Origin: Roseateles aquatilis
GTDB taxonomy: Bacteria; Pseudomonadota; Gammaproteobacteria; Burkholderiales; Burkholderiaceae_C
Length of the DNA: 64,000 bases
Assembly (NCBI RefSeq): GCF_002205645.1
Contig: NZ_NIOF01000001.1
Coordinates: 310,001-374,000, forward strand
Reading direction: 5' to 3'
The notes below the pieces were generated by a model. It ran no database searches, was not told where the DNA came from, and saw nothing but the letters and a program-made list of their open reading frames with translations. A program made the position numbers and the translations under genes. Positions 5,514-20,495 of this stretch are shown piece by piece; the stretch's first letter is position 1, and every line of letters begins with the position of its first letter.

Positions 5514-5728
5514 CGCGCGATTCTCGATCAATCCCCCGCGGTGGGGTCCTGCAGCCATCGTCGTGCGCTGGTTTTCACTCGAAACGCGTAGTCAAACGAC
5601 AGCCGGAAGTCATTGATAAATCGCATGGTTCAGTTGACCACGGCTATTCGTTGAATTGGCCTTGGCCTAGATTGCCCCCCATGCCACCGAGCCACCCGCA
5701 AGACCTGTCACCGCAGAAAGGAACCCCC

Positions 5729-6106
5729 ATGAAACTTGCATTGCACAAGGCGCTCCGCAAAGTCGGAGCCACGGACGAGGATGCACACGAAGCTGCGGAA
5801 TCCATCGATCACGCCCTGGATCGACGCATCGACGAGAAGCACCGCCACTTCGCCACCAAGAGCGACATCACGGCGGTGCAAGGCGAGATCGTCGGCCTCA
5901 AAGGCGACATCGCCAACGTGAAAGGTGAAGTCGCCAATCTGAAAGGCGACATTGCCAATGTGAAGGGCGAGATTGCCAGCGTGCGAGGCGAAATGGCCCA
6001 CATGAAATCAGAGCTGATCCGGTGGATCGTGGGCGGCCAACTGACTACCGTCGCGCTGATGAGCTCACTGGTCTTCGCGGTGGCGAGGATGCGCGGCGTC
6101 GCATGA
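5729..6106 (+). CDS. Membrane-anchored heptad-repeat coiled-coil protein
   Basis: This 125-residue protein has no assigned function. After a basic and then acidic N-terminus (residues 1-45), the centre consists of six tandem seven-residue units of the form G(E/D)IAxVK at residues 52-93, which should form a long coiled coil. A single hydrophobic segment near the C-terminus (WIVGGQLTTVALMSSLVFAV) probably anchors it in the inner membrane. The layout resembles DUF1640-type coiled-coil membrane proteins. An AAGGA sequence 7 bases upstream supports the ATG at 5729. It is flanked by genes on the other strand and appears monocistronic. Confidence 0.75.
   Translation: MKLALHKALRKVGATDEDAHEAAESIDHALDRRIDEKHRHFATKSDITAVQGEIVGLKGDIANVKGEVANLKGDIANVKGEIASVRGEMAHMKSELIRWIVGGQLTTVALMSSLVFAVARMRGVA
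5882..6007 (+). repeat. Six tandem 21-bp coding repeats
   Basis: Six in-frame 21-bp units (consensus near GGCGACATTGCCAACGTGAAA) encode the heptads GEIVGLK, GDIANVK, GEVANLK, GDIANVK, GEIASVR and GEMAHMK. The units differ mostly at third positions, so they look like an old expansion under selection for the coiled coil rather than a recent slippage product. Confidence 0.85.
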
Positions 6107-6172
6107 CATACATCGCGCGACGAGTCCCACCGAAAGAAGGACACCCGCCGGCAGTGGCGCCGACGGGTCCGC

Positions 6173-6820
6173 TCAGAAGCTCCCCTGCTTCACCGGCGCC
6201 GCCACGTCCTGCTTGCCGATGGTCGCCGCATAGGCGACCCGCAAGCGTGCCGGGCCGGTCGGCGCGGGCGCGGAGGCCCCGGTGATCGCCACGCCGGTCA
6301 GGCGCACCTCGACGAGGGCGTTGTTCGGATCGATGCCCGCGAACAGCACCAGGCCGTTGGGACCGCTGGGCACGGCGGTCGTCACGCCGTCGGGCTTCCA
6401 GGTCTGCTGGCGAAAGTAGTGGGTCAGTTGCAGGCCCGCGGCGGCGATCTTGGCGCGCTCGTCGTTGCTGGGCTGGTCCGGCGAGGACCACATCACGTTG
6501 ACGTGCATCAGCTTGCGCGACGTGGCGCCCAGGATGTAGGACACGCTGGCCGGCCCAGGTCCGGGCTCCAGCGCCGGCAGCGCGACGACGACGACGCGCG
6601 TCTTCTCGACGTCGTTGTCGAACTCCCGCACCGCGTCGGGCCCGACCTTGAAGTCGTGCTGGATGGCGGCCCGCACCTGGTCCGCCGTCATGCCGAAATG
6701 GGCGCTGCGGAAGCCCTTGATCTGGAACGGCGCGGGGGCGGCCCTGGCGGCCGGCGCATCGGCGGCCACGGCGCCCAGGGACAGGGCGAGGAGGCAAAGG
6801 GTTCGCAAGGTCTTGTGCAT
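6173..6820 (-). CDS. Exported protein of unknown function, last gene of the TPS operon
   Basis: This 215-residue protein has a typical signal peptide (MHKTLRTLCLLALSLGAVAA, cleavage probably near AARAA). The mature part begins with a motif resembling those of small periplasmic proteins, FRSAHFGMTADQVRAAI. It also has YILGATSRKLMHVNVMW and a late strand VEVRLTGVAI. The 233-residue protein encoded just upstream has the same two landmarks (YVFGATSRTLVAVHVAW and VEVRLTGMAF), so the two are paralogs. The start at 6820 lies 13 bases after the stop of that paralog, so they are almost certainly co-transcribed with the TpsA gene. A periplasmic or surface role connected to the exoprotein is inferred from context only. 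No family was recognised. Confidence 0.75.
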   Translation of the reverse strand: MHKTLRTLCLLALSLGAVAADAPAARAAPAPFQIKGFRSAHFGMTADQVRAAIQHDFKVGPDAVREFDNDVEKTRVVVVALPALEPGPGPASVSYILGATSRKLMHVNVMWSSPDQPSNDERAKIAAAGLQLTHYFRQQTWKPDGVTTAVPSGPNGLVLFAGIDPNNALVEVRLTGVAITGASAPAPTGPARLRVAYAATIGKQDVAAPVKQGSF

Positions 6821-6833
6821 GGGGTGTCGCTGG

Positions 6834-7535
6834 TCAGAAGGCGCCGCTCGGGATGCGGTAGACATCGGGGCTGTCGATCTTGGCCACGATCGAATAATGA
6901 AGGCTCGCCGGACCCGCGGGCGCGGGCCGGCGGTCCGGGGCGCCGCGGCGCTCGACGTCGAAGGCCATGCCGGTCAGCCGCACCTCGACCGCGGAGCCGG
7001 ACGCATCGCGCCCGGTGAACAAGGTCAGCGCGCCCGGGCCGGTGACCAGGCCGCGGGTGGTCGCCAGCAGCGGCCATTGCCAACCCGACAGATCCGCCAC
7101 CAGGGCCGATCCCGCCTTCAGCAGCTGGGCCCGTTCCTCGTCCGTCGGTTGGCCTTCCAGCCGCCAGGCCACGTGCACCGCGACGAGGGTGCGGCTGGTC
7201 GCGCCGAAGACATAACTGATCGTCGCGGCACCGCCGGCGGGTGGCAGCGCCGGCACGACGAAGGCCATGCCCAGGGTGCGATCGACGGGGTCCACCGCCT
7301 CCTTCAGCGAGGCCAGCGCGGCCGGGTACTCCGCCGCGATCAACGCGCGCGCGGCTTCGGGCGACAGGCCCCAGACGGCTCGGCCGAAGCCGGTCGCGCG
7401 GTAGGGCTCGTTGTGGATCAGCCAACGCGTGGGCTGGCCGGTCAGGGACAGCTCGGGAACCGGCGTCTGGGCCATCGCGGAACTCATGAAAGTGAGCGCC
7501 AGGCCGGCGAGCAGGGTGTGCAGCAGAGGTTTCAT
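6834..7535 (-). CDS. Exported protein of unknown function, translationally coupled to tpsA
   Basis: This 233-residue protein has a clear signal peptide (MKPLLHTLLAGLALTFMSSA, then MAQ before the likely cleavage site). Its ATG overlaps the TpsA stop codon (ATGA at 7532-7535), which implies translational coupling. The mature part has a WGLSPEAARALIAAEYP segment, corresponding to the FGMTADQVRAAI region of its downstream paralog, and the shared motifs YVFGATSRTLV and VEVRLTGMAF. It has no obvious catalytic residues, lipobox or transmembrane anchor after the signal peptide. It could be a periplasmic chaperone, a processing factor or a surface partner of the giant exoprotein. These are hypotheses from operon position alone. 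Confidence 0.78.
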   Translation of the reverse strand: MKPLLHTLLAGLALTFMSSAMAQTPVPELSLTGQPTRWLIHNEPYRATGFGRAVWGLSPEAARALIAAEYPAALASLKEAVDPVDRTLGMAFVVPALPPAGGAATISYVFGATSRTLVAVHVAWRLEGQPTDEERAQLLKAGSALVADLSGWQWPLLATTRGLVTGPGALTLFTGRDASGSAVEVRLTGMAFDVERRGAPDRRPAPAGPASLHYSIVAKIDSPDVYRIPSGAF

Positions 7536-10500
7536 GGCGACTTGATGAAGTTGAGCGCGCCGTCGATGGCCGCCATCCGGACCCCGACGCCCCAGCCCAT
7601 GACCGTCAATTCGTTCATCGTGCGGGACTGGCGCAAGGCATTGCCGCGCAGATAGTCGGCCGCCCCCTGCGGGTCGGTCTTGACCATCTCCAGGAAGGTC
7701 GCCTGCACTTGCGCCTGCTCGCGCTGGGTCGCCGCCGTGCGGTCCACCAGGGCCTTGTAGTTGTTGTAGAAGGTCACGCTGCCCTCCGCGTTCGCATACG
7801 GCGATTCCATCCATTTCGGGTTCGCGGTCATGAAGGCGAACCGCGCCACCGGGTCGTTCTTGAGTTCGGCGGCCCGTTCGGCCAGGCGGTTCGGCGACGG
7901 ATCGACCGAGCCGAAGATCGCGCCCGCCAGCGCGCCGATCGCGGCGTGTGGATCGATCGTGAAGTTGAAGCTCAGGCGCAGGCCGCCGAGGCCGATCGCG
8001 GCGCCCAGGTCCAGGCCCACCGTCAACGCGCCGTTGGAGATGCCGCCGGTCCAGCGGGCCGCGAAGCCGAGCGAGCCCGGCGAGTACAGCGTGGCGCCCC
8101 CCTCGATGGCGCCGACGCTGCCGCTCAGGCCCGCCGATCCGCCCACCGACGCGCCCACCCCGACCTGCTGCTCGCTGGTCAGCGTCAACGCGCCGTCGAC
8201 CAGGCCGTAGCGGTTCTCCGCGCGGGCATAGGCGAAGGTGCCGGTGGTGACGTCGATGGTGCCGGTGCCGGCGCCGCCGAGCGCGCCCGCCAATCCCGCG
8301 TTCGCGTAGATGCCGGCCGACGCGTCGGCCGTGACGGCCACGCCGTTGCGATCCAGCCGCACCAGGGCACCGGCTTCGGCTTGCGCGCCGTAGGTGATGT
8401 GGCCGGGCCCGAACTCCATGCTCACTTCCAGATGCGCATTGGCCTCGGCCTCGATGCGCACGCCGGTGACGCCGAAACGCGCGAGCGCGTCCACCGTCGC
8501 GCCGGCCTGCGCCGACAGGTCCACGCCGCCCACGTTCACGCTGGTGCCGGTGGCGCCCGAGGCCGAGCCGGTCAGTTCGACATTGGTCCGGTTCACGGTC
8601 ACGCCGGCTTCCGCGCCGGTCTCGGTCGTGACGCGTTCGAAGTCCAGTGCGCCGGGTTCCTCGCCGCGCCGCACGGTGACGTCGAGGCCGTTCCCGCCCG
8701 TGGTCGGCGCGGCGGCGACGGGCGGCGGCGCGACGGCAACCGGCAAGGTCGGCGTGGGGGCCACGCCGACCAGGTTCATGCCCAGCCGCGTGTCCGCGAA
8801 GACCTCCAGCGCACCGACGGAATTGATCGCATAGCCGGCGCCCAGGAAGCTGTCCTTGAGCACGCGGTAGTTGCCGGCGTCCTTGCCGAACAGGCCGGTC
8901 ACGCGGAACTCGATGGTGCCGACCTGCAGCTGGGAGAAGTCCGTCACCTCGGCGCCGGTCATCCGGTTGCGCGCCGTCACGACGGCGTACACCTCGGGAC
9001 CGCTCAGCGCGCCGTCGGCGCCCCGCAGCGTCGGCACGCCGGGATTGCCGACCAGCCCCAGGCCAGGGATGAACACCGCGTTGCTGGTGCTGTAGCTGAT
9101 CCAGGCCGGCGTGATCGTCATCAGGCCGGGGATGCTGCCGGTCTCGGCGATCTTGTAGTTCTTCGCCGACGCGCCCGTCAGTCCGGTCACGACCTGCAGG
9201 TAGGCGCCCACCGGCGTCCTGCTGTCCAGCGGTACGACGGCGCCTCCCTTGAAGTCCAGCATCGCCACGCTGCCGCCGACCTGGTCGCCCACCATCAGGT
9301 TGTCGAAGTTCACCTGCCCGTAGTCGATGCCGACCTGCCAGGGATAGCAGCGCACCAGCTCGCAGGCCTTGTAGTTGCCGTACTGCCCGGACGCGTTGTC
9401 CACGGCGTACCGAAGCTCGCGCTGGGCCACCGCCAGTTGACCGCTGGCCACCGTCGCGCCGCCGTCCAGCGCGGCCACGCGGTAGTTGCCGCTCTTCGTG
9501 CCGACCAGCGCATCGGTGGCGACGCTGTAGCCGTAGCTGCCGACGTCCAGGCGGCCGGTGTAACCCAGCGTGCCGTCGGCGCCCAGCGTCAGCCGCGCCG
9601 ACGGCATCTCCGCCGTGCCGCCGGTGCGCAGGCCGATGTCGTCGTTGAACAGCACGCCGCTCAGCTTGCCGAGATTCGCGGTGTTGCCATAGGTGCTGTT
9701 GGTCGCCGAGGGCATCGTCAACGTCAGCAGCTTGGGCGCGATCAACAGTTGGCCGCCGACACTGCCGGCCACGTCGAACACGTAGTTGCTCGATCCGGGT
9801 CCGGAGATGGCCGTCACCCGGTCGGTGTAGCGACCCGCGTCGCTGCGTTCGGTGTAGGTCGCGACGGCGCCGGTGGTGTCGTTCGTCGCCGTGTAGACGG
9901 GGATCACCGTCTGGCCCGGCACGAGGTTGTCGAACACCGGCTGCCCCGCCACGTAGCTGCCATAGACGGTGTTGCGCGTGGGCAGCGACACCACGCTCAG
10001 CGGGCGCGGGCTGACGGTGATGCCGCCGAAGAACGGCGCCACCAGCGGGTCCCTGAGCGGCAGCGCGTAGTTGCCGGCCTTCGACCCGGTGAGGTAGCCG
10101 GTGTACCAGTAGCTGCCCACGTCCAGCAGCGTGCCCGCCGCGTTGATGTTCTGGCTCGGGTCGCGCGGCACGTTGAGCGTCGTGCGGGCCTGACCGATCA
10201 CCGACACGTCGTCGCCGAACAGCACGCCGCCCAGGGTGAGGCCGGGGAGGTAGTTGCCGTAGACCAGGTTCAGCCCGCGCGGGTCCACCTCCACCGACAG
10301 CACCCGCGGCTGGATGGTGACCCTGCCGGCGCGCATCGGGGGCTGGTCGGACGGCCGGTCGGTCAACACGTAGTTGCTCGCAGCGCTGCCGGTGATGCCG
10401 GTGGCTTGCACCTCGTAGATCCCGACCGGCGTGCGACCGTTGAGGTCGATCTTGTCGCTGCGGAACCAGGCCTGCCAGGTGGCCGCCAGCGTGTCGCCGG

Positions 10501-13500
10501 CCACCACACCGCTGACGGTGACGGCGGGCGGGAAGCCCTCGCCGTAGCTCAGCACGCTGTCGGCGATCTGCACCGTCACCGGCTTGGGCACCACCGTCAG
10601 CGGCACCTTGACCAGCCGCGCCACGTAGTTGCCGGCATCCGCGCCGGTCAGGCCGCCGACCAGGCCGATGTCATAGGTGCCCACCGGCGCGCGCGTGTCC
10701 AGGCCCGGCTGAGCGCCCTGGCTGGTGATGAAGGCCGCGCTGACGTTGACCTGCTCGCGCCCACCGCTGCTGGTCATCAGCGGCGTCACCACGGCGGTGG
10801 GCAGCAGGGTCGCGGCGCCGCCGTAATTGACCTGCGGCACGATCTGGCCGGTGAAGATGCTGCGCGCATACAGCGACACGTCCAGCGGCCGCTGCGCGAT
10901 GGTCAGCAAGCCATCGGTGTTGCCGGTGCTGGCGAGCACGTAGTTGGACGCGACCGAGCCGGTCAGCGTGCCGCCGGTCCAGCGGTAGGTGCCGGCGCTG
11001 TAGAAGCCGCCGGTGGACGTCGTCAGGCTGGGCGCGGTCACCGAGAGCCCCACGTCGTCGTTGCCGACGACGCCGTTCAGGGTGGTCCGAGCCGTCAACC
11101 GCAAGTCGCCGCCGCTCTGGTACAGCTCGCCGTAGGTGCGCGTGTCGCCGGTCGCCGCGCGCAGCCACCACGGCGTCAGCGTGTAGGTTAGTTGCTTGGG
11201 ATCGATGCGCAGGCTGCCGAAGACGGAGCCCGCGGACGTGACCTCGTAGTTGGCGGCATCGGTGCCGCTCAGGGTGCCCACCGCCAGCAGGTAGTGCCCC
11301 GCCGCCTGCTGCGCGCCCGGCACCGAACCGCCCGCCAGCACCGTGGCGCCGGCCGCGACGCTGTCGCCGGCCAGCACGCCGCTCAGGCTGCCGGTGGCCA
11401 GCGACGGCGCCGTGCCGTAGGTCGTGACGGTGCTCGCGGCGCTGGTGTCGAAGCTGACGGGCTTGCGGGCGATGGCCAGCACGCCGTCCGCGTTGCCGCC
11501 GCCGGCCAGCACGTAGTTCGGATTGCCGGTCAGCGCGGTGACGGTCTCGGTGTAGAAGCCGGCGGCGGTGCGCGGGCCCAGCGTGACCGAACCCGCGCCG
11601 GAGCGCACGTCCACCACCGCGCCCACCGTGTCGCCAGCCAGCACGTTGCCCAGCGTGGCGGCGCCCGCCACGGCCTGCGTGCCATAGACCGCGCTGACGT
11701 TCGCGACGCTGAACGTGACCGGCCGCGGCGTGATGCTCACCGTGCCCGCGGTGTTGCCGCCGGACGCGAGCACGTAGTTGACCGCATCGACACCGGACAG
11801 CGCCGAGACGCCGGCCGCGTGGCTGCCCACGCCGGGCCGCGAGATCGCCGCGCCCAGGCCGTCGAGCGCGGACACCGTGGGCCGCACGTCGTCGCCGAAA
11901 ACGAGGTTGGACAGCGTGGTGACGTTCGTCAGCGTGTTGCCATAGACGGCCGTGCCGCTGCCCACCTGCCAGTTCACCAGGCGCGGCGCGACGGTCAGCG
12001 TGCCCGCGCTGTTGCCGGTGGCCGCGATCGTGTAATTGCTGGCGTCGATGCTGACCAGCGAGCCCACGCCGAGGGTGTAGGTGCCGGCCGGGGTGCGGTA
12101 GGTGTGGTTCTGCGCGCCGCCGGCATCGAACGCCGTGGGCACGGCGAGGACCAGATCCCCCGGCACGACACCGGACAGCGTGACCGAGGGCAGCACGGCG
12201 GTGTCGCCATAGACGCTGCTGGCCGAGCCCACCTGGAAGGTGAGCGGCTTGGGCGTGACGGTGACGCGGCTGGCCGAGCTGTCGGCGCGATTGATGGTGT
12301 AGTTGCCGGCGTCGGCGCCGGTCAGCGCGGCGACATCGACGCGGTACTGCCCCACCGGATAGGCGTTGCCGCTGCCGACGATGGTCGTGTACTCGACGGT
12401 CACCTGCGGCGTGGCGCCCACCTGGTCGCCGAAGAGCAGGCCGCTGAGCGTCGGCGTGCCCATCGCGGTGCCGTAGACCTGGCTGACGTTGCCGCCGAGG
12501 TAGGTGATGGCCTTGGGCGCGATCGTCAGCACCCCGGCCTGGTTGCCCGAGCCGGCGAGCTGGTAGTTGCCCGCTGCGCCGCCGGTCAGGCCGGTGACGG
12601 TCTCGGTATAGGTACCGGCGCGGGTGGCGGCGGTGAGCGGGCCGCCGGACGACTGGCCGACGACGGCGGTGACCGCGTCGCCGGACAGCACGCCGTCCAG
12701 CGTGGCGGCGCCCAGCGTGGTCAAGGTGCCGTAGGTGCCGGCCGCGTTCGCGACCGACCAGGTCAGCGCCTTCGGGCTGACCGTGAAGACGCCGCTCGTG
12801 TTGCCGACGGTGCCGATCTCGTAGTTGCCGGCCGCCGCGCCCGTCAGCGCGGCCACGCTGGTGACATAGCTCCCGGCGTTCATGCGCGCGTCGCGCGTCG
12901 TCGGCGTGCCGGCCAGGCTGAAGCCGGCGACCGCCGTCACCGCGTCGCCGCCGACCAGTCCGGTCAGATCGATGGCCGGTGCCGCGCCCAGCGTGCCGTA
13001 GGTTTGACCGCCGCCATACACGACGTAGGACAGCGGCTTGCGCGCGATCGTCAGCGTGCCGCTGTCGCCGCCGGCGAAGTCCAGCACGTAGTTGCCGGCC
13101 GCCGCGCCGGACAGGCCGGTCAGCGTGAAGGCCGAGCTGCCCGCGTGCTGCGTGGCGCCGAAACCGAAGCCGCCGCCGTTGGCGGTCATCGCCACGCCGC
13201 CGGTGCCGTCGAGCGTGGCCAGCGGCGTGAGCACGTCGCCGTTGACGAGGTTGGTCAGGCCGACCACCGCGCCGGGCGTGCCATAGACATAGCTGCCGTT
13301 GGACACGGTGGCGGTGACATGGCGCGGCGTGATCGTCAGCGGCGCGGTGCCGTCCCGCATGTCGATGAAGTAGCCGCCCATCAGGCCCGGCACGAAGGAG
13401 GGGTTCGCGCCGGCGGACAGCGTCAGCGTCGCGCTGCCCACGGACGCCGTGGCGCCCGGGCCGGCCACCGTGATCGAGCCCGGATTCAGGATGGCGTCGA

Positions 13501-15700
13501 GCGCCGCGCCCGCGGTGCCCGACGTGACATGCAGTTGCGACGTGCCCAGGCCGGCGGCATTGGGGTTGGCGTCGCCATAGGTGTGGGTGACGGCGGTCGT
13601 GCTGCCCAGCGCCAGGCGCGCGGCGTCGCTGCCGTTCATCAGGCCGAAGCGGGTCAGCGCGCCGGCCTCGACGAACTTGATCGTGCCCTCGCCGAAGAGG
13701 GAAGCGCTGGCCTCGTTGGTCCAGTTCACGCTGCCGCCGCTCAGGGTGACGGGGCTCACCACCTGGATGTTGCCGCTCAGCGTGATGGCGTTGGTGACGG
13801 ACACGTCCGCCGGCAGCAGCCGCGGACCGAAGGCCAGCCCCGTGGCGGTGGGCGAGATCGTCGCGGTCAGCGCATCGCCCTGGAAGCGCGGCAGGCGGAT
13901 CGCGCCGGCGTCGCGATAGGTGTTGCCGGCACCGTCGCCCATCGTCAGCGACAGCCGCCCGTTGTTGTTGATGAATTGCGCGCCGCTCAGGTCCAGCTCC
14001 GCCACGCCCGCGCCGCGGTCGGCATCGATCACGCCGCGCGCCGCGGTGTCGTTGGCCACCAGGGTCCAGTTGCCGTCGGCGGTGGTCAGCACGCCGGTCA
14101 GCGTGATGGAGCGCCCGGCCGACAAATTCATGTCGCCGGCCTTGGCCGCGCCGGGCTGGGTCACCGTCGCGATGCCGGCCGACCAGCGGATGTCCTGGCT
14201 GGCCTGCAGGCTGACGTCGGTGCCGGTGCTCAGCAGCGCGATCAGGTCGGCCGAGCGCAGCCGCGTCTCGGTGCCGGGATTGCTGCCGTAGCCGATGTTG
14301 CCGGCCGGATCGGTGGGCGTGCCGCCGTCGATGACGATGTCCTGCGGGTCGAGCAGCAGGCGCCCGCCCTTGCCCAGCAGCAGCCGGTCGAAGGCGATCG
14401 TCTGCACCTGCGTGGCCGACGAGACCTCCACCGCGCCCGCCGACTTCGCGCCGCGCGCGTCGATCGCGCCGGCCGCGGTGGTGGCGCGGTCGCTCCACAG
14501 GATGGTCGTGCCACCGACGCCGTCGGCGCCGGTGGCGGACACGTCGATGCGGCTGGCGGCGTCGACCTGGGTGGTCCGCGCATTGAGCAGCGGCGTCAGC
14601 GCGCCGAAGCGGTGGGCGAAGACCTGCGCGTCGGCACTGCCCGCCGACTGCGGCTTGCCGCCCTGGAAGGCGCCGCCGATGCGTACCAGGCCCCCGCGTT
14701 CACTGCCGGTGGCGCTGAGCGTCGCGCCGGCCAGCGCGATCTGCTGGCCGCTCACGTCGATGCGGCCGCCCTGGCTCGCGCCCTCGCCGGCCGATACGTC
14801 GAGCGTGCCCGACACCCGCATCCGACCGCCCTCGCCCGCTTCCAGCACGATGGCGCCGTCCCGGCCCGACACGCCGCGGGCCCGGATCTCGCCGGGCACG
14901 TGCACGGCGTCGCGCAGGGCCTCGCGCACGGTGGACGCCTTCAGCATCACCGTACCGCCGTCGGCCTCGATCACGCCGCTGTGCGTCACCAGCGCCTGGC
15001 CATCGGCGGTCGTGGCGTCCGCCGGCAGCACCACCTGCAGGAAGCCGTCGCCCGACAGGTCCAGCGTGGCGACCTGCGCCGAGCCCAGCGCCACCTTGCC
15101 CAGCGGCGCGCGGATCAGCCCTTCGTTGGCCACCGTGCCGCCCAGCAGCGCCACGTGACCGCCCGGGCCGGCGAGGATCTGCCCACGGTTGACCACCGCC
15201 CCGCCCGGGCCTGCGAACACGTCGCGGCCGGCCATGAAGTCCTCGTCCTTCATGCCCAGCGTCGACGCCACGAACCCGGCGCGCACGTCGACCAGGCCGG
15301 TCGGCGTGATCGCGATGCCGTTGCGATTGATCAGGTAGACCGAGCCGTTGGCCTTCAGGCTGCCGGCGATCGTGGACGGCGCGGAGCCGTCGACCACGTT
15401 CAGCGTCGCCGCGCCGGCATTGGGCTGGACGAAGGTGACGCTATTGCCCTGGCCGACGCCGAAGCCCGACCAGTGGATGACGGCGCGCTGGCTGCCCTGC
15501 TTCACCGTCAGGGCATTGGGCGCGGGCGTCGAGATCTGCGCCTGGCCGGCGCTGACCTGGCCGCCGCTGGGCAGGGCCTGGGCATGGATCGCCATCGGCA
15601 CGAGCGGCAGCGTGGCCGCGATCAGCGGCCAGACGACGGTGCGACGCAGCCGGAACGGCAGGTCCAGCACCAGGGAGAGGGTCTTTTGCACGGGCTTCAA
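7532..15700 (-). CDS. Giant two-partner secretion exoprotein (TpsA) with MBG/YDG-type repeats
   Basis: This 2722-residue protein starts with a long basic signal region (residues 1-40, ending MAIHAQA) and a TPS domain of the FhaB/HMW1 type (~42-290). That domain carries LINRNGIAI at ~122-130, a variant of the conserved NPNGI motif. A beta-helix-like section runs to ~780. About 16 repeats of 80-100 residues follow (~785-2300). Each opens with a K/R-P-L-T-Y-type strand and a YG turn and closes with LTGxxAGNYxLxxxGNxxGxLTI, matching MBG/YDG adhesin modules. A Pro/Ala linker (~2305-2330) leads to an unassigned 390-residue C-terminal region. The start is apparently TTG at 15700, in a TTGA overlap with the tpsB stop; a GTG three codons later is an alternative. 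The likely role is a secreted or surface adhesin. Confidence 0.9.
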   Translation of the reverse strand: MKPVQKTLSLVLDLPFRLRRTVVWPLIAATLPLVPMAIHAQALPSGGQVSAGQAQISTPAPNALTVKQGSQRAVIHWSGFGVGQGNSVTFVQPNAGAATLNVVDGSAPSTIAGSLKANGSVYLINRNGIAITPTGLVDVRAGFVASTLGMKDEDFMAGRDVFAGPGGAVVNRGQILAGPGGHVALLGGTVANEGLIRAPLGKVALGSAQVATLDLSGDGFLQVVLPADATTADGQALVTHSGVIEADGGTVMLKASTVREALRDAVHVPGEIRARGVSGRDGAIVLEAGEGGRMRVSGTLDVSAGEGASQGGRIDVSGQQIALAGATLSATGSERGGLVRIGGAFQGGKPQSAGSADAQVFAHRFGALTPLLNARTTQVDAASRIDVSATGADGVGGTTILWSDRATTAAGAIDARGAKSAGAVEVSSATQVQTIAFDRLLLGKGGRLLLDPQDIVIDGGTPTDPAGNIGYGSNPGTETRLRSADLIALLSTGTDVSLQASQDIRWSAGIATVTQPGAAKAGDMNLSAGRSITLTGVLTTADGNWTLVANDTAARGVIDADRGAGVAELDLSGAQFINNNGRLSLTMGDGAGNTYRDAGAIRLPRFQGDALTATISPTATGLAFGPRLLPADVSVTNAITLSGNIQVVSPVTLSGGSVNWTNEASASLFGEGTIKFVEAGALTRFGLMNGSDAARLALGSTTAVTHTYGDANPNAAGLGTSQLHVTSGTAGAALDAILNPGSITVAGPGATASVGSATLTLSAGANPSFVPGLMGGYFIDMRDGTAPLTITPRHVTATVSNGSYVYGTPGAVVGLTNLVNGDVLTPLATLDGTGGVAMTANGGGFGFGATQHAGSSAFTLTGLSGAAAGNYVLDFAGGDSGTLTIARKPLSYVVYGGGQTYGTLGAAPAIDLTGLVGGDAVTAVAGFSLAGTPTTRDARMNAGSYVTSVAALTGAAAGNYEIGTVGNTSGVFTVSPKALTWSVANAAGTYGTLTTLGAATLDGVLSGDAVTAVVGQSSGGPLTAATRAGTYTETVTGLTGGAAGNYQLAGSGNQAGVLTIAPKAITYLGGNVSQVYGTAMGTPTLSGLLFGDQVGATPQVTVEYTTIVGSGNAYPVGQYRVDVAALTGADAGNYTINRADSSASRVTVTPKPLTFQVGSASSVYGDTAVLPSVTLSGVVPGDLVLAVPTAFDAGGAQNHTYRTPAGTYTLGVGSLVSIDASNYTIAATGNSAGTLTVAPRLVNWQVGSGTAVYGNTLTNVTTLSNLVFGDDVRPTVSALDGLGAAISRPGVGSHAAGVSALSGVDAVNYVLASGGNTAGTVSITPRPVTFSVANVSAVYGTQAVAGAATLGNVLAGDTVGAVVDVRSGAGSVTLGPRTAAGFYTETVTALTGNPNYVLAGGGNADGVLAIARKPVSFDTSAASTVTTYGTAPSLATGSLSGVLAGDSVAAGATVLAGGSVPGAQQAAGHYLLAVGTLSGTDAANYEVTSAGSVFGSLRIDPKQLTYTLTPWWLRAATGDTRTYGELYQSGGDLRLTARTTLNGVVGNDDVGLSVTAPSLTTSTGGFYSAGTYRWTGGTLTGSVASNYVLASTGNTDGLLTIAQRPLDVSLYARSIFTGQIVPQVNYGGAATLLPTAVVTPLMTSSGGREQVNVSAAFITSQGAQPGLDTRAPVGTYDIGLVGGLTGADAGNYVARLVKVPLTVVPKPVTVQIADSVLSYGEGFPPAVTVSGVVAGDTLAATWQAWFRSDKIDLNGRTPVGIYEVQATGITGSAASNYVLTDRPSDQPPMRAGRVTIQPRVLSVEVDPRGLNLVYGNYLPGLTLGGVLFGDDVSVIGQARTTLNVPRDPSQNINAAGTLLDVGSYWYTGYLTGSKAGNYALPLRDPLVAPFFGGITVSPRPLSVVSLPTRNTVYGSYVAGQPVFDNLVPGQTVIPVYTATNDTTGAVATYTERSDAGRYTDRVTAISGPGSSNYVFDVAGSVGGQLLIAPKLLTLTMPSATNSTYGNTANLGKLSGVLFNDDIGLRTGGTAEMPSARLTLGADGTLGYTGRLDVGSYGYSVATDALVGTKSGNYRVAALDGGATVASGQLAVAQRELRYAVDNASGQYGNYKACELVRCYPWQVGIDYGQVNFDNLMVGDQVGGSVAMLDFKGGAVVPLDSRTPVGAYLQVVTGLTGASAKNYKIAETGSIPGLMTITPAWISYSTSNAVFIPGLGLVGNPGVPTLRGADGALSGPEVYAVVTARNRMTGAEVTDFSQLQVGTIEFRVTGLFGKDAGNYRVLKDSFLGAGYAINSVGALEVFADTRLGMNLVGVAPTPTLPVAVAPPPVAAAPTTGGNGLDVTVRRGEEPGALDFERVTTETGAEAGVTVNRTNVELTGSASGATGTSVNVGGVDLSAQAGATVDALARFGVTGVRIEAEANAHLEVSMEFGPGHITYGAQAEAGALVRLDRNGVAVTADASAGIYANAGLAGALGGAGTGTIDVTTGTFAYARAENRYGLVDGALTLTSEQQVGVGASVGGSAGLSGSVGAIEGGATLYSPGSLGFAARWTGGISNGALTVGLDLGAAIGLGGLRLSFNFTIDPHAAIGALAGAIFGSVDPSPNRLAERAAELKNDPVARFAFMTANPKWMESPYANAEGSVTFYNNYKALVDRTAATQREQAQVQATFLEMVKTDPQGAADYLRGNALRQSRTMNELTVMGWGVGVRMAAIDGALNFIKSP
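8870..13340 (-). repeat. Array of about 16 MBG/YDG-type repeats inside tpsA
   Basis: I counted sixteen closing motifs of the form (L/I)(T/S)GxxAxNY. Examples are LSGAAAGNY, LTGGAAGNY, LTGADAGNY, LSGVDAVNY, LTGSVASNY and LFGKDAGNY. They are spaced roughly 240-320 bases apart. Most are followed by a G-x-L-x-I strand and a K/R-P linker into the next repeat. The units are well diverged at DNA level, so this is an ancient modular array rather than a recent expansion. Confidence 0.8.
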
Positions 15701-17406
15701 AACTGCACCTGTCCCTTCAAGAACGCGCGGTCTTCATTGACGCCCGCGATGCGCCGGCGTCCGTACTCCACCGACAGGCTGGCGCCGCGCCATTGCGTGC
15801 GCAGTCCCAGGCCGTAGGACGCGGCCAGGCCGCGCGTGGCGGCGCCTTCGATCCGGGTCGTCACGCGCCCACCCGCCGCGAAGGCATAGGGCGACAGACC
15901 CAGCGCCGCGCCGCCGATGTCCCCCCCCATCGGCCGCGAGACCTCCTGGCGCAACGACCAGCCGCCGTCGTCCGAGATCGCGCCGGCCACGAAGGTCGAC
16001 AAGGCGTCCTCGCCGTCCAGGCTGAACAGCTCGGCGCCCGGCATCACGCCCTCCAGGGCCCACTGCGCGCGCGCCACGCCGCGCGCCTGCAGGCCCCAGG
16101 GCAGTGGGCCGCTGTCGAAGCTGGCGGTCATCTCCAGGCGCTTGAAGCTGGACTTGGCGCCCAGGCGCGACATCGGGATGCCCGTCGCCTCGATCTCCAC
16201 CGGGGTGCGGGCGCCCAGTTCGGTGAAGCCTTGCGAGTAGGTGGACGACACGCGCAACCGGCCCGCCTGCAACGGCCGGGTCCAGTCGACCGTCAGTCGC
16301 GCGACGCGCAGCGCGTCGATGTCGAGGACGTAGTTGAAGTCGGGCAGCGAATCGGTCTGCCGGCTCGCGTCCAGCGTGCCGGTGAGGGTCAGTTCTTGCT
16401 GGCGGTCCAGGATCAGCGGATAGATCAGCCGCAGCGTGTATCGCTCCAGCTGGCTGCGCGACAGCGGCGCCAGGGGGGCCGGCGTGGGTTTGGTGTCGGA
16501 GACCGTGAACTCGGGGTTGAGGCTGAGGCCGCTGTCGCCCAGCGGCACGATCACGCCGCCGCCGCCGACACGGCGCCGCGCGTCGGTCTGGAACATGCGC
16601 GCGACGTCGGCCCCGCCGGAGACATAGAAATACAGCTGCTCGCCGCGTTGCCCGAGCTGGTTCAGCCGCACCTGCACCGAGCTCTGCCAGGGCCCGAGCG
16701 CGGCGGACGAGCGGTCATCGGCGGACAACGAGACCACCACCGGCTCATGCTCGCCTTCCAGCACCAGCACCGTGCCGCCGGTGGCCTGGCCCGCGCCCAG
16801 CGCGCTGCGCAGGCTCAGGCCCGGTCCGCGGCCGGCCAGGGTCAGCGCGCGCTCCAGCGCCGCGCTCGTCAGGCGTCGCTGGCCCACCAGCGGGGCGAGC
16901 GTCGCCTGGACCTGCCGGCGCGCCCGCTCGGGCACGGCGGCCAGGTCGATGCGCTCGACGAAGCCGTCGATCAGCGTGAACGTCAGCGTGCCGCCATCCT
17001 TCAGCGATTGCGGCGGCACGACCACGCGCACCAGCGCGTAGCCGGCGGCGCGGTACTGGTTTTCGATCTCGTCGGCGAGCCGGTACAGGTCAGCGACCGA
17101 CCTGCGCTGGCCGCGCAGCGGCGCGATGAGCGCCTGCGTGGTCGCGGTCAGGTCGGGAAAGGCGCCGACCAGGGTGATGTCGCCCACCACCACGAACAGC
17201 GTCTCGGCCTTGCCGGGCACTGCCTGCGGCGCGGGCGCTGGCAAGGCGGCGGGGGGCCGTGGCGGCGTCTCCGGACGCAGGTCGCGCGGCGTCACCTGTG
17301 GGGCTTGCGGGGCCTGCTGGCCCGCGGCAAGCGCCGGCAGCAGACACACGCCCGTGATGAGCAGGCGTTGCGCCAGGACGGAAAGGGAGCCGGGATGGGG
17401 GTTCAA
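15697..17406 (-). CDS. TpsB outer-membrane transporter, ShlB/FhaC/HecB family
   Basis: This 569-residue protein is expected to recognise the TPS domain of the adjacent exoprotein and move it across the outer membrane. A signal peptide (residues ~1-30) is followed by a Pro-rich linker, two POTRA-like domains (~70-215, including QYRAAGYALVRVVVPPQ and FTLIDGFVERIDL) and a C-terminal beta-barrel ending in Phe (AFLKGQVQF). The length agrees with the family. The reading frame begins at TTG (17406), preceded by an A-rich AAGAAAAGAA stretch; no in-frame ATG precedes the signal peptide. Its stop overlaps the tpsA start. It is the first gene of the four-gene operon, and its 5' end faces the response regulator gene. 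Confidence 0.92.
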   Translation of the reverse strand: MNPHPGSLSVLAQRLLITGVCLLPALAAGQQAPQAPQVTPRDLRPETPPRPPAALPAPAPQAVPGKAETLFVVVGDITLVGAFPDLTATTQALIAPLRGQRRSVADLYRLADEIENQYRAAGYALVRVVVPPQSLKDGGTLTFTLIDGFVERIDLAAVPERARRQVQATLAPLVGQRRLTSAALERALTLAGRGPGLSLRSALGAGQATGGTVLVLEGEHEPVVVSLSADDRSSAALGPWQSSVQVRLNQLGQRGEQLYFYVSGGADVARMFQTDARRRVGGGGVIVPLGDSGLSLNPEFTVSDTKPTPAPLAPLSRSQLERYTLRLIYPLILDRQQELTLTGTLDASRQTDSLPDFNYVLDIDALRVARLTVDWTRPLQAGRLRVSSTYSQGFTELGARTPVEIEATGIPMSRLGAKSSFKRLEMTASFDSGPLPWGLQARGVARAQWALEGVMPGAELFSLDGEDALSTFVAGAISDDGGWSLRQEVSRPMGGDIGGAALGLSPYAFAAGGRVTTRIEGAATRGLAASYGLGLRTQWRGASLSVEYGRRRIAGVNEDRAFLKGQVQF

Positions 17407-17547
17407 CGTGGGGTTCTTTTCTTGGGCAGGCGGACGCGGGCGATGGCTTCATCACCGCGGGTCGGATGCTAGGGAGCGGCGCCCGCCTTGTCGGTAGAAC
17501 GAACGCGCTACAAGGGCGACGTGAATTCCGCACACAATCCCCCCGCG

Positions 17548-18273
17548 ATGACCCTGGACGCCCTTGCCCCGCCCCCCGAGCCGCCGCCGCTGCATGTCGT
17601 GATCGTCGAGGACGACCCCGACTTCGGCGAGGCGCTGAGCCGCGTGCTCAGCGAGGCGCCCAACCTGCGCCTGGCCGGCCGGGCCGGCACGCGCGCCGAG
17701 GGACTGGCGCTGCTGGACGGCCCGCCCGCCGACGTGCTGCTGGTGGACCTGGGCCTGCCCGACGGCTCGGGCATCGACGTGATCCGCGCGGCCGTGCGGC
17801 AATGGCCCAGCTGCAGCATCATGGTCAGCACGAACTTCGGCGACGAGATGCACGTGATGCGCTCGATCGAGGCCGGCGCGGCCGGCTACCTGCTCAAGGA
17901 CAGCTCGCCGACGCGCATGATCGACGAGATCCGCAGCCTGGCCAGCGGCGGCAGCCCGATCAGTCCCATCATCGCGCGCCAGATCCTGGCGCGTTTTCGC
18001 GAAACGGTGCCCGCCGAGCCCGCCGCCGGGGCCTCCGCCGACCCGGTCTGCGCCGCCGCCTCGGACCCGGAGGCCTCGCCCCTGTCGATGCGCGAGAAGG
18101 AAGTGCTGGTCTACATCACCAAGGGCTTCACGGTGAACGAGATCGCGCGGCTGATGTCGCTGTCCCACTTCACCGTGCGCAGCTTCGTGCGGCGCATCTA
18201 CAGCAAGCTGAAGGTGACCTCCAAGGCCGAGGCCATCTACGAGGCGCGCACGCAAGGGCTGCTCGCGGAATGA
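17548..18273 (+). CDS. NarL/FixJ-type response regulator
   Basis: This 241-residue two-component regulator has a receiver domain at residues ~15-130, with the acidic pair VEDD, phosphoacceptor Asp67 in LLVDLGLPDGSG, the conserved Thr/Ser position in MVSTNFGD and Lys in YLLKDSS. A LuxR-type helix-turn-helix (~175-235; REKEVLVYITKGFTVNEIA and SHFTVRSFVRRIYSKLKV) binds DNA. The ATG at 17548 is used. Earlier in-frame GTG (17521) and TTG (17488) codons are possible and would overlap the tpsB promoter region. The stop overlaps the kinase start (ATGA). Divergent orientation from the TPS operon suggests it controls that operon. Confidence 0.9.
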   Translation: MTLDALAPPPEPPPLHVVIVEDDPDFGEALSRVLSEAPNLRLAGRAGTRAEGLALLDGPPADVLLVDLGLPDGSGIDVIRAAVRQWPSCSIMVSTNFGDEMHVMRSIEAGAAGYLLKDSSPTRMIDEIRSLASGGSPISPIIARQILARFRETVPAEPAAGASADPVCAAASDPEASPLSMREKEVLVYITKGFTVNEIARLMSLSHFTVRSFVRRIYSKLKVTSKAEAIYEARTQGLLAE

Positions 18274-20231
18274 CATCGGCCGACGCACGACGCCGCGCGT
18301 CGCCGCTGGCCCTCCTGGTGCTGCTCGGATCGATCGGCGTGCTGGCGGCCATGGGCGCGGTGCTGGCCGGCGCGATGGGACTGCACCTGCCCTCCTCCGG
18401 TCTGCACCTGGTCCAGGCCGAGTGGCAGGAAGCCCCGGCACCGGCGTTCACCGCGCCCGCGCCCGCCATCGACAGCCGCGCCCTGCCCGCGACCTGGCAG
18501 CCCGTGTCGCTGCCGCTGGCCCTGCCGGCCGCGCTGCTGCAGCAGGCCAGGGCAGCCGAGACCGCCCCGCCGCAACCGACGGTGCTGGTCACGTGGTTGC
18601 GGGTCGCGGTGCCGCCCGGCGCGCCCGCCAGCGGCCCGCTCGCGCTGTACGGCGCGCGGGTGAAGACCGACGGCACCGTGGCCGTCTACATCGACGGTCG
18701 CCTGGTGCATCGCGCGCAGCAGGACGGCCCGCTGTGGAACAGCACGCGCACGCCGCTGTGGGTAGAGCTCGGGCCGGCGCAGGGCCGGCCACCGGCGCGC
18801 GAGATCCTGTTGCGCCTGGAGCATTCGAGCAAGAGTCGCGTCGCGCTGTCCTCGCTGTGGCTGGGCGACGCCGGGCTGCTGCAAGGGCGGCGCCAGGTGC
18901 GTCAATGGCTGCAGCAATCGCTGCCGGCGGCGCTGGGCGCGGCCTTCATGGTCATCGGCGTGTTCTCGCTGTTCGTGTGGCTGCGCCGCCGGCACGAGAT
19001 CGGTTATCTGCTCTTCTTCAATCTCGCGGCCACGTCGTGGCTGCGCGGGCTGCACTTCCACCTGAGCCTGCCCATCGCCAACGACGGCTTCGCGTGGCTG
19101 ACCGTCAACGCGCTGTTCTGGCTGGTGATGGTGGTGCACTTCTTCCTGCGCCAGTTGCACGGCCGGCCGCTGCGCTGGCTGACGCGCGTGGTCGTCGCGA
19201 CCACGGTGATCATCGGCGTGCTGACGCTGCCGCCGGTCGGCGTGCTGCTCAACACGCCGCGTGTCACGCCGCTGCTCTACGCGGTGGCCGCGCTGATGGG
19301 CGCGACCGTGGGCCTGGTCGGCGGCCTCTGCGCCTGGCGGGAGTCCCGCGAGGGCCGCTCCGTCGCCGTCGGCATCGGCCTGTGCACCTTGCTGGGCATG
19401 ACGGACTGGCTGCTGCAGAACAACTTCGTCAGCCCCGAAGGCTGGTACCTGGGCGTCTACGTCAACGCGGTCGCGCTGAGCGTCTTCGGCAGCCTGATCT
19501 ATCGGCGGTATGTCGACGCCATCGCGGCCGTGGAGCGCGTCAACGCCGGCCTGGAGGAACGTCTCGCGGCGCGCGAGGCCGAGCTGCAGGCCAGCCATCG
19601 CCGCCTGCGCGAAGTGGAGATGCGCCAGACCATCAGCGACGAACGCCAGCGCCTGATGCAGGACATGCACGACGGCCTGGGCTCGTCGCTGATCAGCGCG
19701 ATACGGTCGGTGGAGCGCGGCGGGCTGGGTGACGCGGCCGTGTCGCAGGTGCTCAAGGACTGCCTGGACGACCTGAAGCTCACCATCGATTCGATGGAGC
19801 CCATCGAGGCCGACCTGCTGCTGCTCCTGGCCACGCTGCGCTTCCGGCTGGAGCCGCGCCTGGAAGGCACGGGCGTCACGCTGCTGTGGGAGGTGCGCGA
19901 GCTGCCCGCGCTGCCCTGGCTGGACCCGTCCAGCGGCCTGCACATCCTGCGCATCGTGCAGGAGAGCATCGCCAACATCCTGCGGCACACGCGGGCCACG
20001 CAGATCCGCGTCAGCACCGCCGTCGTCGAGGACGGCGTCAGCGTGAGCATCGAGGACAACGGCCTGGGCTTCGATGCCGACGCGGCGCTGGCGCAGCCGT
20101 CGTCCGGCCGCGGGCTGCAGAACCAGCAGCGCCGCGCGCAGGCGGTGCGGGGCCGCGTGGACTGGCGGTCCGGCGCCACGGGGACGGTCTTCACGCTGTG
20201 GTTGCCGCGCGAGCACCCGCCGCATCCTTGA
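18270..20231 (+). CDS. Sensor histidine kinase, 7TMR-DISM type with HisKA_3 domain
   Basis: This 653-residue membrane kinase is probably the partner of the response regulator whose stop codon overlaps its start. An N-terminal membrane helix (~11-38) leads to a periplasmic region (~45-205) resembling a 7TMR-DISM extracellular beta-jellyroll. About seven transmembrane helices follow (~215-420), then a coiled coil (~425-455). The HisKA_3 dimerisation domain has the H-box ERQRLMQDMHDGLGSSL, with His467 as the phosphorylation site. The HATPase domain carries the N-box ESIANILRHTRAT and the G motifs DNGLGF and GRGLQNQQRRA. DISM kinases often sense carbohydrates or envelope ligands; the actual ligand is not visible here. 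Confidence 0.9.
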   Translation: MTSADARRRASPLALLVLLGSIGVLAAMGAVLAGAMGLHLPSSGLHLVQAEWQEAPAPAFTAPAPAIDSRALPATWQPVSLPLALPAALLQQARAAETAPPQPTVLVTWLRVAVPPGAPASGPLALYGARVKTDGTVAVYIDGRLVHRAQQDGPLWNSTRTPLWVELGPAQGRPPAREILLRLEHSSKSRVALSSLWLGDAGLLQGRRQVRQWLQQSLPAALGAAFMVIGVFSLFVWLRRRHEIGYLLFFNLAATSWLRGLHFHLSLPIANDGFAWLTVNALFWLVMVVHFFLRQLHGRPLRWLTRVVVATTVIIGVLTLPPVGVLLNTPRVTPLLYAVAALMGATVGLVGGLCAWRESREGRSVAVGIGLCTLLGMTDWLLQNNFVSPEGWYLGVYVNAVALSVFGSLIYRRYVDAIAAVERVNAGLEERLAAREAELQASHRRLREVEMRQTISDERQRLMQDMHDGLGSSLISAIRSVERGGLGDAAVSQVLKDCLDDLKLTIDSMEPIEADLLLLLATLRFRLEPRLEGTGVTLLWEVRELPALPWLDPSSGLHILRIVQESIANILRHTRATQIRVSTAVVEDGVSVSIEDNGLGFDADAALAQPSSGRGLQNQQRRAQAVRGRVDWRSGATGTVFTLWLPREHPPHP

Positions 20232-20292: not shown

Positions 20293-20367
20293 TGGTGGGC
20301 GGTGCAGGGTTCGAACCTGCGACCCCTGCCGTGTGAAGGCAGTGCTCTACCGCTGAGCTAACCGCCC
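20293..20367 (-). tRNA. tRNA-Val (anticodon CAC), downstream copy
   Basis: The cloverleaf has acceptor arms GGGCGGT and ACCGCCC, D-arm GCTCAGCGGTAGAGC, anticodon stem CTGCC/GGCAG enclosing loop TTCACAC (anticodon CAC) and T-arm with GGTTCGAACC. The 3' CCA is encoded. The 75 bases are identical to the second copy 53 bases away. It reads GUG codons. Confidence 0.96.
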
Positions 20368-20420: not shown

Positions 20421-20495
20421 TGGTGGGCGGTGCAGGGTTCGAACCTGCGACCCCTGCCGTGTGAAGGCAGTGCTCTACCGCTGAGCTAACCGCCC
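20421..20495 (-). tRNA. tRNA-Val (anticodon CAC), promoter-proximal copy
   Basis: The sequence and fold are identical to the neighbouring copy, including anticodon CAC in loop TTCACAC and an encoded CCA. A promoter lies about 60 bases upstream and both copies share one terminator, so they probably form a single transcript. Confidence 0.96.

Follow-up and report, generated by a model that had tools for sequence, protein, structure and literature searches.

Two exported paralogs in a two-partner secretion operon of Roseateles aquatilis, most likely a new family of accessory proteins in a system of known kind

Introduction

Why should an operon for type Vb secretion, a two-component pathway in the textbooks, carry two further genes for exported proteins? 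The question is raised by a stretch of 64,000 nucleotides from Roseateles aquatilis (assembly GCF_002205645.1, contig NZ_NIOF01000001.1, positions 310,001 to 374,000 of the forward strand), which we call the window. Its minus strand carries a type Vb, or two-partner secretion (TPS), operon in which the genes for the transporter TpsB and the giant exoprotein TpsA are followed by two small genes, whose products are related to each other and bear signal peptides. The small proteins most likely form a new family of accessory factors within a system of a known kind, with a function that we infer. According to a 2021 review, the need for a periplasmic chaperone network that keeps TpsA secretion-competent is mostly unknown (PMC8151025; this review and PMC5422565 are both cited here in part). 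A conserved, operon-borne family of exported proteins that goes with TpsB and with several kinds of TpsA offers a concrete gene for that question in environmental bacteria.

Results

The locus is assigned to type Vb secretion by the domains of its two large proteins, and secretion of TpsA through TpsB is predicted. The outer-membrane transporter TpsB (15697 to 17406, minus strand, TTG start, 569 residues) has a signal-peptide-like N-terminus, a POTRA_2 domain at residues 87-148 and a ShlB/FhaC barrel at residues 213-536 (PF08479 and PF03865, both above cut-off). The exoprotein TpsA, encoded on the same strand at 7532 to 15700 and likewise from a TTG start, has 2722 residues, with a TPS domain at residues 40-289 (PF05860, 103.5 bits against a cut-off of 33.5) and 16 matches to its own MBG-like repeat at residues 795-2280. 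Small gene 1 (6834 to 7535, minus) and small gene 2 (6173 to 6820, minus) encode 233 and 215 residues, respectively; each product consists of a signal peptide and a single domain, which is the same in both. All four genes lie where an earlier note on this DNA had placed them, joined by a TTGA overlap between tpsB and tpsA (15700-15697), an ATGA overlap between tpsA and small gene 1 (7535-7532) and a gap of 13 bases between the small genes (6833-6821). A terminator-like hairpin directly follows small gene 2 (6143 to 6168, minus; 11 pairs, 8 of them GC, with a T-rich tail), so the transcript may end there. The hairpin scan gave 4 sites against a shuffle mean of 3.6, and this site alone had a stem longer than 5 pairs. 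No sigma-70-like promoter was found in the operon scan.

The two small proteins are paralogs, as the note had said, with 36% identity over 181 residues (E=1e-32). The note had recognised no family for either of them, and the search with hidden Markov models (HMMs) agrees: neither has a Pfam or NCBIfam match at E up to 1, and at the same threshold neither contains a glycosyltransferase or acyltransferase domain of the HMW1C/CdiC type. Nothing on the family was found in publications, among the matches listed. A signal-peptide-like hydrophobic stretch is present in 51/54 open reading frames (ORFs) of the family, and a lipobox, by a simple rule, in 3/54; the small proteins of the window are without one. 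The invariant residues of the family appear structural and include no catalytic-looking set. For the mature part of small protein 2, AlphaFold predicts a confident (alpha-beta4)x2 fold with a mean pLDDT of 95.3; confidence in the C-terminal tail is 69-87, below the rest of the model.

This tail is well conserved across the family. The typical homolog ends, at the stop codon, in PD[IV]xx[IL]xxGxF, and 83 of 101 ORFs end in GxF. The tail alignment holds 54 rows, 7-8 of which are tailless or cut short; among the rows that reach the tail, the final F is kept in 45/46, the G in 45/47 and the D in 46/47. Small protein 1 keeps the family tail and ends in SPDVYRIPSGAF, while small protein 2 ends in VKQGSF. 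In the members that have it, the conserved tail (PD[IV]...GxF) is a candidate docking peptide.

We compared seven full operons: the window's, three from the same genus (G005/L014, G010/L015 and G004/L016) and those of Duganella levis (L038), Telluria antibiotica (L041) and Massilia phosphatilytica (L043). The other six operons keep all four frames, in the same order and at 39-63% identity to those of the window, which makes the arrangement more than chance. The small genes adjoin tpsA in 7/7. Within the genus, the small-protein profile matches 4/16 genomes, its own included, and an orthologous TpsB (60-62% identity to the window's) is found in these same 4; small genes and orthologous tpsB are jointly absent from the other 12/16. 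For 6 of these 12 genomes, the only TpsB matches have at most 32% identity. The window's own genome contains five places with a TPS domain, one of them the tpsA of the operon, and only one pair of small genes.

The two domains are not always encoded by two genes. In the three relatives from the same genus, both domains lie in a single ORF of 445-463 residues that has one signal peptide (in L014 this ORF has an ATGA overlap with the exoprotein gene if translation begins at the first of its three nearby ATGs); each domain has its own gene in the window, Duganella, Telluria and Massilia. Overall, the tree placed the seven first domains in one clade (100/100) and the seven second domains, with two sequences from one metagenome-assembled genome (MAG), in another (95/92), which puts one duplication before the split. 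The three one-ORF proteins cluster in both domain halves. The first domain of the window groups, weakly, with Oxalobacteraceae and not with its own genus (94/62), and the linker of L016 retains DRPDPYP at the position of the small protein 1 tail. To judge from the sequences, duplication into two genes was likely followed by fusion in one lineage, although the opposite order is also possible. Since the two genes correspond to the halves of one two-domain protein in three relatives, they need not have separate functions. The MAG (ZCTH02-B6; L039, L040) is labelled Firmicutes, while its small proteins fall within the Burkholderiales second-domain clade and one of them lies with tpsB and tpsA; it is perhaps a binning error or a mislabelled genome.

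How far does the family extend beyond this clade? Evenly drawn scans found it in at least 2/399 genomes of the order (own included, the other weak), at least 3/369 of the class (own included; one weak, with internal stops), at least 6/398 of the phylum (own included) and at least 13/385 of the Alphaproteobacteria, in 18 places. At most 8 candidates were scored in many of these genomes, and the counts are lower bounds. Outside the genus there are six strong places, of which five (L029-L033) lie at most 71 bp from a TPS or LktA-type exoprotein gene; the sixth, L027, lies at a contig end without such a gene.

Neighbourhoods were compared for 80 named loci, the best 80 of 121 confirmed, which had been picked by similarity to TPS-linked members and of which 24 are Bradyrhizobium by their titles. 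The flanks covered about 9-10 kb or ran to the contig end, several contigs being short, so a flank without a TPS gene does not mean a genome without one. Neighbours were called with home-made HMMs, and some SapC, ClpV and repeat ORFs were named by eye. The sets overlap: L014, L015, L029 and L033 are the same places as L042, L044, L051 and L089, and L138, L139, L140 and L150 the same as L047, L054, L067 and L072. A tpsA, an LktA-type exoprotein gene or a tpsB is present in the flank of 53/80 loci, at most 500 bp away in 52 and at most 100 bp away in 48. By type, the flanks hold tpsA in 12, the LktA type in 34 and tpsB in 17. The LktA-type identity was given by NF012204 in 4/4 scanned, and it is this different exoprotein type that the small gene precedes in Bradyrhizobium and Rhodobacterales. 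Small-gene homologs lie upstream of tpsA in L050 and L053, and the homolog in L115 follows a haemagglutinin-repeat protein. Seven loci have tpsB without an exoprotein gene in the flank (L057, L058, L061, L062, L080, L081 and L104), and in five of them (L057, L061, L080, L081 and L104) the small gene comes directly after tpsB, so the family can follow the transporter and not a single cargo. The evenly drawn alphaproteobacterial sample (see Discussion) shows a family of broader scope: an exported domain that recurs most clearly in TPS operons but is not exclusive to them.

Homologs were also seen beside other systems. SapC-family (PF07277) genes adjoin the small-protein gene in L034-L037, L149, L151 and L153 (Azospirillum brasilense, A. 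argentinense, Gemmobacter and others). The Azospirillum loci have a giant gene beyond SapC, except that L034 has a TpsB-like ORF instead; two Azospirillum plasmid records annotate SapC, Pfam-confirmed in one, and one of the two records also annotates filamentous haemagglutinin. The homolog in L148 lies beside type VI secretion genes (VgrG by Pfam), L097 and L113 have type VI neighbours (ClpV-like ORFs by eye), and the homologs in L150 and L154 immediately adjoin genes for a CHAT-TPR protein and for a CHASE2 adenylate/guanylate cyclase.

The presumed cargo is conserved as well. The TpsA proteins of the seven operons, with about 2750 residues, are 41-47% identical between groups over their length, and each gives 16 matches to the window repeat profile. 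The window TpsA has no MBG-type Pfam match at E up to 1. MBG_2 is clear in the TpsA of L045, L049 and L050, and in a single comparison the window's 15-repeat profile aligned in register with the MBG_2-type repeats of L045/L050 (hhalign probability 67.5%, P=5e-5). The window TpsA has two cysteines only, at residues 2113 and 2118, which form a CxxxxC pair some 600 residues from the C-terminus. The pair is invariant in 7/7 TpsA, as their only cysteines, and is a possible export-arrest or anchor loop. The C-terminal 388 residues (7535-8698) include a Gly-rich region, with a low-confidence prediction of several strands of 17-24 residues; after the Gly-rich region, the end of the protein is predicted, with better confidence, to be helical. 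This Gly-rich and helical region has no Pfam match in the window protein.

Upstream of tpsB and divergent from it lie genes for a LuxR-type response regulator (17488 to 18273, plus strand) and a histidine kinase, its probable partner (18276 to 20231, plus). The earlier note held that this two-component system completes a self-contained locus. The pair is indeed present here, but it is not constant, being adjacent in 4/7 operons: both genes in the window and G004, and the kinase placed in Telluria and Massilia. The kinase orthologs of G004, Telluria and Massilia have 66-67% identity and are divergent to tpsB as in the window; in Telluria and Massilia the distance of 940-990 bp leaves room for a response regulator. 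The kinase orthologs of Duganella are on other contigs, and the matches in G005 and G010 reach at most 40%. In the flank of 22/80 named loci, mostly Bradyrhizobium, lies another kinase, which has a conserved sensor domain. Beyond the histidine kinase lie tandem tRNA-Val (CAC) genes (20293-20367 and 20421-20495, minus). Beside the other end of the operon, an ORF at 5651-6106 contains a 21-base (7-residue) tandem repeat in about 5 copies.

Discussion

Our favoured explanation, held tentatively and with a little less than even confidence, is a two-partner secretion operon whose giant exoprotein is fibre-like and which brings its own periplasmic accessory factor, in two copies, that would serve TpsA/TpsB secretion. 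Both small proteins would leave the cytoplasm by Sec and stay soluble in the periplasm, where their binding partner may be TpsA that is unfolded or only partly folded, the POTRA face of TpsB, or both. They would thereby guard the exoprotein from aggregation and proteolysis and feed it to TpsB. The two domains probably act as a pair, as two subunits here and as a covalent tandem in the three relatives, whose natural one-ORF form is a ready test of this pairing. The C-terminal tail would do the docking in members that have one. A more ambitious version of this explanation is possible but doubtful: a dedicated operon-borne periplasmic TPS factor, in which an (alpha-beta4)x2 heterodimer or fused tandem holds giant repeat exoproteins and delivers them to TpsB, through a C-terminal docking tail in most single-domain members, and which was co-opted for several classes of exoprotein across Burkholderiales, Alphaproteobacteria and Nitrospinota. 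The TPS additions named in section 9 of PMC5422565 are the CDI genes I, O and C, HMW1C, HxuC and unlinked proteases (CDI, contact-dependent growth inhibition), and a periplasmic factor of the kind proposed is not among the additions listed in that section or in the cited part of PMC8151025.

Several observations weigh against an accessory factor for TpsA secretion. Neither the fused proteins nor the second-gene products of Telluria and Massilia have the C-terminal tail, so these members do without it. The structure-based check gave a confident predicted fold but no clear fold relative among solved structures, chaperone or other. In the flanks of 27/80 named loci there is no TPS, LktA-type or TpsB gene; seven of these 27 are Azospirillum-type loci with a SapC-looking neighbour and a giant repeat ORF, and L115, with its haemagglutinin-repeat neighbour, is another of them. 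In the evenly drawn alphaproteobacterial sample (the class of G1053, assigned through the match of that genome to Tardiphaga L051; E<=1e-6; 17 flanks fetched, the 18th place being L029; some contigs <10 kb), TPS genes are found in the flanks of only 5/18 places (L029, L143 and L144 close; L145 and L147 within 8 kb), which makes the family broader than TPS. SapC adjoins another 3/18 (L149, L151 and L153), and the remaining places have as neighbours a VgrG, a CHAT-TPR protein, a CHASE2 cyclase, ParB/efflux genes or nothing informative. To our knowledge, moreover, known TPS systems work without such a protein. The suggestion in the note of a dedicated accessory role therefore holds in part: the small proteins are a conserved exported part of the operon with relatives beside TPS genes in several lineages, but the family is not confined to TPS. 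Likewise, homologs lying mostly away from tpsA, which the note had named as a sign against its idea, were not what we saw in the own clade (7/7 adjacent) or in the 80 named loci (53 with TPS or LktA-type genes); they were, however, what we saw in the alphaproteobacterial sample.

These points lead to the other explanations. The mixed neighbourhoods of the evenly drawn places, with TPS and SapC in a minority and the rest scattered, would suit an exported domain with a general binding role that many surface systems (TPS, SapC, type VI secretion, CHAT, CHASE2) have taken up and that acts on the envelope or outside rather than in TpsA secretion. We nevertheless regard this as improbable, given the 1-4-base overlaps with the exoprotein gene in the window, L043 and several Rhodobacterales loci, the recurrence of close TPS linkage in several lineages, and the joint presence with tpsB in the genus. 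Unlikely too, if somewhat less so, is a role in surface retention, in which the small proteins either keep the C-terminal part of TpsA from leaving the periplasm or exit with TpsA and cap or decorate the fibre. Here CxxxxC could arrest export and leave the TpsA end periplasmic for small-protein binding. The invariance of this pair despite the divergence between groups agrees with such a role, and a C-terminal disulfide of some TpsA remains in the periplasm and is required for anchoring (PMC8151025). On the other hand, the TpsA of L030 and L031 are without cysteine in the part examined, L045 has its sole pair at the very end, and the loci whose flank shows tpsB without an exoprotein do not suggest a TpsA-specific anchor.

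The small proteins might instead be regulatory ligands, periplasmic modulators of the sensor kinase that report free TpsA or the envelope state to the adjacent two-component system. The kinase orthologs divergent to tpsB in 4/7 operons point in this direction, as do the different conserved-sensor kinases in 22/80 flanks, which stand beside both TpsA-type (L050, L051) and LktA-type exoproteins. Yet the kinase is unlinked in Duganella, G005 and G010 have no close ortholog, and 55/80 named loci have no homolog of these kinases or of the regulator in the flank; we give this explanation only a small chance. Immunity or self-protection against a toxic TpsA, like that of CdiI against CdiA, seems very improbable. 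A small gene that starts on the tpsA stop codon does resemble the cdiA-cdiI layout. The gene order in CDI systems is cdiBAI (PMC5422565). However, the C-terminus of TpsA is not hypervariable: it aligns to the end in 7/7, and its identity to the six relatives in 100-residue blocks is 0.27-0.48 from residue 2301, compared with 0.24-0.53 over residues 801-2300. Homologs are also found upstream of tpsA (L050, L053), with tpsB alone or beside unrelated exoproteins, and on these grounds, together with the conserved C-terminus, membership of CDI (CdiBAI) was rejected. PADLOC had no match for the small-protein pair or the TpsA end; for a fused relative it gave a single weak partial match (RmrT, E=0.0014).

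Among known systems, the mode of action proposed for the small proteins has its counterpart in Par27 and DegP, which are not known to be encoded in the TPS operon. Both are periplasmic factors that bind a TpsA, FHA, in transit (PMC8151025). Their role is general, whereas the small proteins of the window are operon-borne and have no Pfam family match. A loose resemblance of the predicted fold to BLIP, which is built of two tandem alpha/beta halves, is possible; an antiparallel sheet with helices would be common to both. As an accessory gene within a TPS operon, BcpO of Burkholderia CDI is also similar: it is a predicted periplasmic lipoprotein in some species and is needed for BcpA function (PMC5422565). 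By description, the small proteins are set apart from it by the lack of a lipobox and of a toxin/immunity layout. The HMW1C/EtpC glycosyltransferases and CdiC are likewise encoded by a further gene alongside tpsB and tpsA (PMC5422565, PMC8151025), but the glycosyltransferases are cytoplasmic, in contrast to the small proteins, which have signal peptides and match no enzyme family. The overall plan is closest to that of FHA/FhaC and HMW1A/B, type Vb systems that also combine a TPS-domain exoprotein and a POTRA-ShlB transporter in one operon. To this plan the operon of the window adds two exported paralogs, MBG-like repeats and a CxxxxC pair far from the C-terminus.
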